A stretch of 64,000 nucleotides of DNA from Lacinutrix sp. 5H-3-7-4. Its GTDB lineage: Bacteria; Bacteroidota; Bacteroidia; Flavobacteriales; Flavobacteriaceae. The DNA is taken from assembly GCF_000211855.2 (NCBI RefSeq), contig NC_015638.1:2887001-2951000 (forward strand), in the 5' to 3' direction. Positions 20,891 through 58,728 of the stretch are shown one piece after another (within the stretch, counting starts at the first letter, position 1; each line of letters starts with the position of its first letter). The notes under the pieces were generated by a model. That model saw only the letters and a list, made by a program, of their open reading frames with translations, searched no databases and was not told where the DNA came from. Both the position numbers and the translations under genes were made by a program.

Positions 20891-20923
20891 TTTTTTTTTT
20901 TTAAAAAATAAAATATCTTTTAT

Positions 20924-56998: not shown

Positions 56999-58087
56999 AT
57001 GGAACACTTTGTAGTATCGGCAAGAAAATACAGACCACAAACATTTAAAGATGTTGTTGGGCAATCTGCCATTACAAATACTTTGCTAAACGCTATAGAT
57101 AATAATCACTTAGCACAAGCCTTATTGTTTACCGGACCACGAGGTGTAGGTAAAACCAGTTGTGCTCGTATTTTGGCTAAAATGATTAATAGTGATGGTA
57201 CAGAATCTAACGAGGAAGATTTTGCTTTTAATATTTTTGAACTTGATGCTGCTTCAAACAACTCGGTAGACGATATTAGAAGTTTAACAGATCAGGTACG
57301 TATTCCTCCACAAGTTGGAAAATACAAAGTTTATATTATTGACGAGGTACACATGCTATCTCAAGCCGCTTTTAATGCTTTTTTAAAAACTTTAGAAGAA
57401 CCGCCAAAGCATTGTATATTTATTCTTGCAACTACAGAAAAGCATAAAATAATACCTACAATTTTATCACGTTGTCAAATTTTCGATTTTAAACGTATTA
57501 CTGTAAAAGACGCCAAAGAATATTTAAAATATATTGCACAAGAACAAGGTATAAATGCAGAGGATGATGCTTTACATATTATAGCTCAAAAAGCAGATGG
57601 CGCTATGCGTGATGCTTTATCTATTTTTGATCGTGTTGTAAGTTTTTCGGGAAAAGAATTAACACGACAATCTGTTACAGAAAATTTAAACGTATTAGAT
57701 TACGAAACTTATTTTACAAGTACAGATTTAATTTTAGAAAATAAGATACCAGAATTACTAATACAATTTAATGAAACCTTATCTAAAGGTTTTGATGGAC
57801 ACCATTATATAGCAGGACTAGCATCTCATTTTAGAGATTTATTAGTCTGTAAAAATCCAGCTACTATAGAACTTTTAGAAGTTGGAGATCAAACTAAAGA
57901 AAAATATTTAGAGCAATCTAAAAAAGCTTCTCAAGCCTTTTTATTAAAAGGAATTGAGTTAGCTAACGAAACCGATTTAAAATATAAATCCAGTAAAAAC
58001 CAACGACTACTCGTTGAACTTTGTATCATGCAACTTGCCTCTATCACTTTTGATGGAGATAAAAAAAAAATAGCAGTCGGTACATAA
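56999..58087 (+). CDS. dnaX: DNA polymerase III subunit gamma (short DnaX product; 0 frame)
   Basis: This 362-residue product is the AAA+ part of DnaX, the clamp-loader motor. It has Walker A GPRGVGKTS (about 43-51), the DELDAASNNSVDDIR region, IIDEVHMLS and the sensor ATTEKHKIIPTILSRCQ. The four zinc-binding cysteines of other bacterial DnaX proteins are absent, as in other flavobacteria. The frame ends shortly after a run of ten As (58061-58070): three Lys codons, then IAVGT and a stop. The typical DnaX C-terminus continues in the -1 frame downstream. So this is either the short gamma form with full-length tau made by slippage, or a gene whose A-run is miscounted by one base. Confidence 0.9.
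   Translation: MEHFVVSARKYRPQTFKDVVGQSAITNTLLNAIDNNHLAQALLFTGPRGVGKTSCARILAKMINSDGTESNEEDFAFNIFELDAASNNSVDDIRSLTDQVRIPPQVGKYKVYIIDEVHMLSQAAFNAFLKTLEEPPKHCIFILATTEKHKIIPTILSRCQIFDFKRITVKDAKEYLKYIAQEQGINAEDDALHIIAQKADGAMRDALSIFDRVVSFSGKELTRQSVTENLNVLDYETYFTSTDLILENKIPELLIQFNETLSKGFDGHHYIAGLASHFRDLLVCKNPATIELLEVGDQTKEKYLEQSKKASQAFLLKGIELANETDLKYKSSKNQRLLVELCIMQLASITFDGDKKKIAVGT
58061..58070 (+). other. A10 tract, candidate programmed slippage site in dnaX
   Basis: Ten consecutive As follow GATGGAGAT. One extra A (or two fewer) in the RNA, or -1 ribosomal slippage on AAA codons, joins the gamma frame to the C-terminal frame. A GGAG lies a few bases upstream (58055-58058). In Thermus a run of nine As in dnaX causes transcriptional slippage, and E. 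coli dnaX uses -1 frameshifting at A-AAA-AAG. Confidence 0.6.
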
Positions 58088-58728
58088 TTCCACCATCCTA
58101 TTTTAAACGTGTAGGTATTACGCCTATTCCGGTAAAAAAAGTAGAACAAACTACAAACGCTCCTGTAGAAAATAAACCACAATCTGTAGTATCTACTAAA
58201 CAACCTATATTAAATACGGCAGATACAGCAACAAAAACTGCTCCTAAAATAATACTTAATAGCGGTAAAAAACCAACATCTGGATTGTCTTTAAAAAGTA
58301 TTCGAGCTAAAAAAGAGCACGAAATAAAACAAAAAGATAATACTATAGATGAAGAAAACCTACCAAGAGAACCTTTTACTCAAGATGAATTAACCCAAGT
58401 TTGGAACACATTTATTAAAGATATTGAGAAAGAAGGCAAAATGAATCTTGCCGCAATACTCTCAATAGACAAACCAAGATTAAAAGGAACAACAATACAT
58501 TTAACGTTTCCAAATGCCACTAATAAAGTAGAGGTTGAAAGACAATCGTACGATTTGCTTCAATTTTTACGCAAAACATTAAGAAACTTTGATATAAGTC
58601 TGGATATTGATGTTAATGAAGAAATGCAAAAGAAATTTGCTTACACGCCAGAAGAAAAATACGAGAAATTAAAAGAAAAAAACCCTAATATTGAGTTACT
58701 TAGAAAAACTTTCGATTTAGATTTATAA
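58063..58728 (+). CDS. dnaX: Tau-specific C-terminal part of DnaX (reached by -1 frameshift)
   Basis: The -1 frame is open from 58063 to the TAA at 58726-58728. It continues DnaX as NSSRYIIPPSYFKRVG, a Lys/Thr-rich linker, then a conserved domain with LPREPFTQDELTQVW and the final LLRKTFDLDL typical of the flavobacterial DnaX C-terminus. There is no ATG near its beginning, only TTG codons, so it is not a convincing independent gene. Joined to the 0 frame it would make a tau of about 576 residues, of the normal length for the family. It lacks its own promoter or leader. Confidence 0.75.
   Translation, partial: KKNSSRYIIPPSYFKRVGITPIPVKKVEQTTNAPVENKPQSVVSTKQPILNTADTATKTAPKIILNSGKKPTSGLSLKSIRAKKEHEIKQKDNTIDEENLPREPFTQDELTQVWNTFIKDIEKEGKMNLAAILSIDKPRLKGTTIHLTFPNATNKVEVERQSYDLLQFLRKTLRNFDISLDIDVNEEMQKKFAYTPEEKYEKLKEKNPNIELLRKTFDLDL

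Follow-up and report, generated by a model that had tools for sequence, protein, structure and literature searches.

A conserved hairpin and A10 tract at the dnaX frame break of Lacinutrix sp. 5H-3-7-4 and other Bacteroidia: a candidate for programmed RNA polymerase slippage

The genome of Lacinutrix sp. 5H-3-7-4 is a single contig of 3.3 Mb, from which a stretch of 64,000 nucleotides (the window; NC_015638.1, positions 2,887,001 to 2,951,000) was analyzed. The window contains a dnaX gene that is broken at a run of ten A residues (Table 1). The first-pass annotation had described a gamma-sized product in the 0 frame and the C-terminus of tau in the -1 frame, and this description is confirmed by the sequence and by profile searches. 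The N-terminal piece matches TIGR02397 (dnaX_nterm) with an E-value of 2.6e-115. The C-terminal piece matches the DnaX model NF011531 (8e-23) over positions 421-613 of the 614 in the profile, with a score below the whole-protein cut-off, as expected for a query that is a fragment. Its match to the Pfam DnaX_C model is sub-threshold (0.032), and a search of solved structures with the tau part gave no significant hit (best E-value 2.3). In an Rfam scan of positions 57900-58300, the five matches were weak and none came close to the gathering score. The gamma reading frame ends soon after the run, with the last base of its stop codon 17 nt downstream, and the -1 frame has its earliest in-frame ATG only at 58441, within the conserved part.

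Table 1. Features of the dnaX locus of Lacinutrix sp. 5H-3-7-4 (positions in the window)
Feature	Position	Strand	Basis
Whole dnaX gene, broken at the A10 run	56999-58728	+	
dnaX 0 frame, gamma-sized product of 362 aa (AAA+ ATPase, lid, domain III)	56999-58087	+	Open reading frame, profile match
RNA hairpin 5' of the tract, 8 bp (arms 58039-58046 and 58051-58058, loop 58047-58050)	58039-58058	+	Fold, covariation
A10 slippage tract (putative)	58061-58070	+	Read from the sequence; conserved in relatives
TAG closing the third phase, immediately 3' of the run	58071-58073	+	Sequence; closure in relatives
TAA ending the 0 frame (gamma), spanning tau-frame codons ATA-ATT	58085-58087	+	Sequence
Tau-specific C-terminal part, -1 frame, 218 codons and stop	58072-58728	+	Sequence, profile match, purifying selection

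A second genome from a separate assembly, G006, has the identical tract and phase. It differs from Lacinutrix dnaX at 4 of 1,062 nt in the N-terminal part and at 9 of 668 nt in the tract and the tau part. With so few differences, G006 is a close sister; its assembly is a separate one, but it is not a distant witness.

A survey of the family (Flavobacteriaceae) covered 397 genomes, with a dnaX match in 384. Genomes with matches at contig edges or with fragmented genes (G027, G053, G074, G221, G262 and G396) were kept outside the count of split genes. Removal of 10 identical and 3 overly short sequences from 375 matches left 362 distinct dnaX loci from Bacteroidia, 300 from the family and 62 from other Bacteroidia. 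Among the family loci, 80 are candidates that were placed there by 82-95% identity, and one (L331, genome G142) was grouped with the outsiders in the control and permutation sets for closing stops and hairpins. As every split gene of the family was taken, and the others only in part, phase counts from these loci over-represent split genes.

The A-run is a nearly constant feature of the site. A run of at least nine A residues is present in 353 of the 362 loci, and it is exactly A10 in 288. It is kept even in Bacteroidia relatives in which the neighboring codons are unrelated, and it is found in 25 of the 27 dnaX loci with a GC content above 45% in the DNA retrieved. The rest of the dnaX genes (n = 360) contain 14 such runs per 393,825 coding nt, or, in terms of windows of 160 nt, runs in 13 of 2,043; the run at the site exceeds what chance would give. 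Codon usage does not by itself explain an unbroken run, because lysine codons elsewhere in Bacteroidia dnaX are AAG in 25% of cases and AAA in 75%. Outside the Bacteroidia, in other classes of the phylum, inspection by eye found an A9-A10 run close to the site in 9 of 20 genes, and this patchiness indicates that the DnaX protein does not demand the run. The patchy distribution (L434-L453) could also serve to date the origin or the losses of the module. The first-pass annotation had suggested aligning relatives with regard to both the run and the frame break: the run is conserved, and the break occurs in only part of the loci. It had also named intact relatives without a run as evidence that would speak against slippage. 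Such relatives are few, since 259 of the 263 loci with tau in frame have at least nine A residues.

The genomic phase is far more variable. Tau is in frame in 263 of the 362 loci (the tau phase), 79 are in the -1 phase, 18 are in the +1 phase, and two have no assignable phase, such as L095 (genome G004, with A9 and an assembly that is 84% complete). A10 runs are seen in all three phases, with exactly ten A residues in 227 of 263 tau-phase and 55 of 79 -1-phase loci; A11 is present in 23 of the 263. Among the 384 family genomes, 62 have a 0 frame that stops just past the tract, after 357-416 codons (by row count), 49 of them in the -1 and 13 in the +1 phase. Outside the family, dnaX looks split in 31 of the 146 Bacteroidia matches listed, with five further matches beyond the list and three at contig edges left unjudged. 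On a FastTree phylogeny of the 227 loci whose N-terminal domain is complete, the 21 split genes require at least 18 changes of phase, 5 to the +1 and 13 to the -1 phase. The +1 class is less secure than the others, because 8 of its 18 loci would turn into A10 tau-phase genes if one base had been added in error, and the phase of one member, L270, rests on a frame that is open for 373 nt up to the contig end. The earlier statement that the standard frame gives the short form thus holds for this Lacinutrix, but not for most relatives, in which the standard frame gives tau.

Irrespective of phase, the two frames that do not encode tau tend to be closed soon after the run. Neither of them stays open for more than 30 nt past the run in 345 of 360 loci, compared with 1,425 of 5,830 control positions (24%). 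Split genes have one closing stop by definition, so that the tau-phase genes are the unselected test. For these alone, both other frames are shut in 222 of 229 family loci and 31 of 34 loci outside, and, when only outside genes with a run are considered, in 31 of 31. Downstream of the run, the tau part appears to be constrained in the split genes that could be compared. The median pN/pS of the tau C-terminal part was 0.32 in split loci and 0.27 in 167 tau-phase loci, calculated against the nearest tau-phase relative, which for 21 of the 97 split loci lay within the identity range used. Values for single split loci range from 0.12 to 0.83, with high values at saturated or near-saturated distances. 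Between Lacinutrix (G000) and G006, the tau part has a dN of 0.006 and a dS of 0.046.

The tract is preceded by a hairpin. In Lacinutrix, the 36 nt 5' of the run have a folding energy of -9.7 kcal/mol (z -4.5, 30 shuffles), and the helix, which is capped by a loop of 4 nt, stops 2 nt short of the A10 run. If an abutting stem is defined as one that ends at most 3 nt from the run and has an energy of at most -3 kcal/mol, then 259 of the 295 family loci that carry the run have one, as do 47 of the 58 run-bearing loci from elsewhere, but only 15% of 1,059 control windows further upstream in these genes do. Such a stem is found at 2 of the 34 other tracts of at least ten A residues in this Lacinutrix genome, and in 2 of 9 tract-bearing dnaX genes from other classes.

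Exchange of the arms between species indicates that the two halves of the hairpin belong together. Among 260 distinct upstream 24-mers, 215 (0.83) have an abutting stem and 45 do not, whereas swapping the 3' arms reduces the fraction to 0.58 on average, and to at most 0.63 (12-nt cut, 20 permutations). Outside the family there are 54 distinct sequences, for which the native fraction is 0.81 and the swapped fraction 0.50, with a maximum of 0.63 (12-nt cut, 50 permutations); with other cuts of the arm, it is at most 0.65 (50 permutations per cut). Native folding thus exceeded arm-swapped folding in all permutations tried, both for all loci and for the outside set. In a fixed register, the effect is modest: for 91 distinct 20-mers with the commonest register, picked blind to structure, pairing is possible in 71.7% of cells, compared with a maximum of 70.1% in 500 arm permutations and with 40-49% when the arms are slid. 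Compensatory types of change are seen, for example from CG to TA at the pair -14:-7. Taken together, the frequency of the stem, the arm swaps, the covariation and the rarity of such stems elsewhere suggest that the hairpin at the Bacteroidia dnaX site is under selection.

The hairpin also offers a different reading of the GGAG just upstream of the run, to which the first-pass annotation had drawn attention. The motif is present (58055-58058), and it is located in the 3' arm of the hairpin. Of the 300 family loci, 160 have it immediately 5' of the run, but none of the 62 outside do, where the stem is nevertheless found in 47 of 58 loci with a run. A role as a Shine-Dalgarno stimulator was therefore set aside, and the GGAG is better understood as part of the hairpin.

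The anatomy of the locus, the conservation of tract, hairpin and stops, the turnover of the phase and the constraint on the tau part are consistent with programmed slippage that yields both gamma and tau, as the first-pass annotation had proposed; comparison of the relatives lends this proposal strong support. We infer that the RNA polymerase is the slipping agent, and consider it probable that slippage assisted by the hairpin gives rise to both proteins from dnaX. Once the A10 run is copied, the rA:dT hybrid of 9-10 bp would be homopolymeric, so that transcript and template could realign. The nascent hairpin, forming right behind the run, would melt or pull the hybrid and in this way promote the realignment. 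The dnaX transcripts would then carry ten A residues or other numbers of them. The templated count would lead to gamma, with a stop after 362 codons, whereas one extra A, or another change to the same phase, would by the arithmetic of the reading frames lead to tau with 576 residues. The remaining phase would run into the TAG directly past the run, and would give another gamma-sized product. The slippage would also set the ratio of the products.

Whether the module operates in this way throughout the class is a separate matter. On balance, we lean towards a class-wide hairpin-A10 module in Bacteroidia, with slippage so thorough that the downstream frame can drift almost freely, and with lineages that have gone back and forth repeatedly between an intact and a split frame while gamma and tau are always made. 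With a similarly slight preference, we would regard the module as the homopolymer counterpart of stem-loop-mediated slippage, situated in a core replication gene and with a run length that corresponds to the RNA-DNA hybrid.

The ribosome is the obvious alternative to the RNA polymerase. A-runs are shift-prone sites for ribosomes, and a programmed -1 frameshift on the run would produce tau in Lacinutrix and gamma in the tau-phase relatives. The -1 phase predominates (79 of 97 split loci, 49 of the 62 split family genomes), which would agree with this, and an excess of -1 over +1 is what mutation bias or -1 ribosomal shifting would equally bring about. The analysis covered 33 of the 34 tRNA places, and the only lysine tRNA found in these is tRNA-Lys(UUU), as would suit such a shift. 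E. coli likewise has only tRNA-Lys(UUU) for lysine, and the tRNA set therefore does not discriminate between the mechanisms. From the +1 phase, which is found in 18 split loci and was reached by at least five changes on the tree, tau cannot be attained by a -1 ribosomal shift, and these lineages thus favor transcriptional slippage. A ribosomal slip site requires a heptamer, and the conserved length of the run, ten, is greater than that. The conserved hairpin is on the 5' rather than the 3' side of the site, and no GGAG precedes the run outside the family. Downstream folding does not help to decide the matter: its mean z was -0.32 for 353 loci and -0.46 for the control, but E. coli dnaX itself reaches just -0.60, so that the test is without power, and out of six downstream folds that were considered singly, L014 alone stood out (z -3.0). 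As the homopolymer is as long as the hybrid and would be bordered on its upstream side by a stem-loop of the nascent RNA, we favor slippage of the RNA polymerase, and consider ribosomal frameshifting an unlikely general explanation, even if two genera with a split dnaX but fewer than nine A residues may work in this way.

It could also be argued that there is nothing to explain, either because the assembly is one A short or because the gene is dead. Eleven A residues would restore a single open frame in Lacinutrix, and A11 does occur in 23 of 263 tau-phase relatives. The separate assembly of G006 has the same tract, and an undercall is hence unlikely for this strain; even if it had happened, it would leave the family-wide site standing. 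As a general account, the one-base error that the first-pass annotation had mentioned as the mundane alternative fails, because it predicts A9 in -1-phase genes, where it is seen in 6 of 75, compared with A10 in 227 of the 259 tau-phase genes that have a run (Fisher p 5e-39). A single open frame in Lacinutrix is thus rather improbable. Decay of dnaX, with gamma alone being made and the tau part a relic, would fit a 0 frame that stops at gamma. It is very hard to reconcile with a C-terminal part that is open and apparently constrained as in tau-phase genes, and with a split that is shared with G006 and accompanied by no further damage; we consider it most improbable. Least probable of all appears a DNA-level switch for phase variation. 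Homopolymers within coding sequence and a genomic phase that differs between species might bring such switches to mind, but the length of the run is mostly ten (227 of 263 in the tau phase, 55 of 79 in the -1 phase) rather than freely varying, gamma and tau are both core parts of the replication machinery, and a conserved hairpin next to the run would not be expected from replication slippage.

Slippage of the RNA polymerase has precedents in dnaX itself. In Thermus thermophilus, as described in the cited accounts, dnaX has an A9 run and tau encoded in one ORF, with gamma and tau made from mixed mRNAs (PMC1088944, PMC5009743). The Lacinutrix gene is similar in having a run of at least nine A residues and in the closure of both non-tau frames near the run, and differs by its A10 run and its off-frame tau, whereas most relatives share the single-ORF tau. 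The upstream hairpin of Lacinutrix is unmentioned in the passages on Thermus dnaX, with which it was compared by description only (PMC1088944, PMC5009743). The two-ORF type is likewise not new. According to the main text of Antonov et al. (2013), there are 17 two-ORF dnaX genes, all with a -1 shift, 12 with poly-A and nine of these with A10, for which programmed transcriptional realignment was proposed (PMC3711429). The Lacinutrix gene resembles them, with N-terminal and tau C-terminal parts in overlapping frames that are joined at an A10 run. Compared with that set as described there, the Bacteroidia site is conserved also in tau-phase genes, the splits go both ways, and a hairpin abuts the run. 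The same authors take orthologues with both directions of frameshift as a sign of transcriptional realignment (PMC3711429), and by this rule, the two directions in Bacteroidia dnaX would point to it as well.

The closest parallel for the hairpin comes from a mobile element. In Roseiflexus IS630, a nascent stem-loop 5'-adjacent to the motif is reported to stimulate slippage (PMC5009743). The inverted repeat of Lacinutrix dnaX is also located directly 5' of the putative slippage motif, which is, however, A10 in a replication gene instead of T5C5 with loss of one C, as given for the element (PMC5009743). The combination of a hairpin with a homopolymer also recalls an intrinsic terminator. E. coli dnaX, in the cited descriptions, obtains gamma and tau from one gene by means of an A_AAA_AAG heptamer with an SD-like element upstream and further stimulators downstream (PMC5009743, PMC3711429). 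Lacinutrix dnaX has the two products in common with it, but the A10 run is followed by T, so that there is no A_AAA_AAG heptamer, and the hairpin is upstream. Moreover, unlike in the -1 frameshifting of E. coli, there is no conserved upstream Shine-Dalgarno sequence across the Bacteroidia loci, and the direction of the shift is mixed (79 loci -1, 18 loci +1). For a flavobacterial symbiont, it has been suggested that frameshifts located in homopolymer tracts may be functional, in passages that do not name dnaX for it (PMC3971599).

The loci without a long run are few. A run of at least nine A residues is missing from four split genes (L252, L257, L267 and L280), which belong to two genera, and a split dnaX is thus possible without the tract. 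In L252 and L267, which belong to one genus (code g21), the split is in the -1 phase, and the junction GGAAAAGTAA is near the end of domain III. It resembles an A_AAG ribosomal shift site, and these genes could have switched from transcriptional slippage to ribosomal frameshifting. In the other genus (code g95), a strong stem (-9.8 kcal/mol for 36 nt) precedes an A8 run in L257, and the split dnaX of L280 has an interrupted run; the two are possibly stages of tract loss. Among tau-phase genes, the tract is absent from the site in L321 from the family and in L388, L390 and L394 from outside. L382 has no tract either, but its sequence is cut short.

Other long A-runs in the Lacinutrix genome are a separate observation. 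Runs of A10-A13 within long open stretches are found on its contig at G000:C1:130079 (L401), 60823 (L399), 1200895 (L414) and 2346662 (L424), and these may slip or vary, too. Judging by eye, we take the products to be lycopene-cyclase-like, glycosyltransferase-like in two cases, and a membrane protein. In the window, an A12 run at 20891-20902 on the minus strand is the only other run of at least ten A residues listed, and it is not associated with a long open frame.

Slippage at the A9 run of Thermus dnaX and two-ORF dnaX genes with A10 runs are already known from the cited accounts (PMC1088944, PMC5009743, PMC3711429). For the abutting hairpin, the class-wide conservation and the repeated change of phase in both directions, we found no account in the open-licence papers searched, the supplement of PMC3711429 excluded. 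The tract and hairpin are constant in many species and the genomic phase is not, which makes the dnaX site a natural experiment for studies of programmed transcriptional slippage. If the proposed mechanism is correct, the ratio of tau to gamma should follow the RNA polymerase and not the annotated frame, and dnaX genes that are called frameshifted in Bacteroidia can be functional. It would also establish a link between hairpins in the nascent RNA and slippage for a gene of the cellular core rather than for a mobile element. Finally, the dnaX module bears on the question of why gamma is kept at all.
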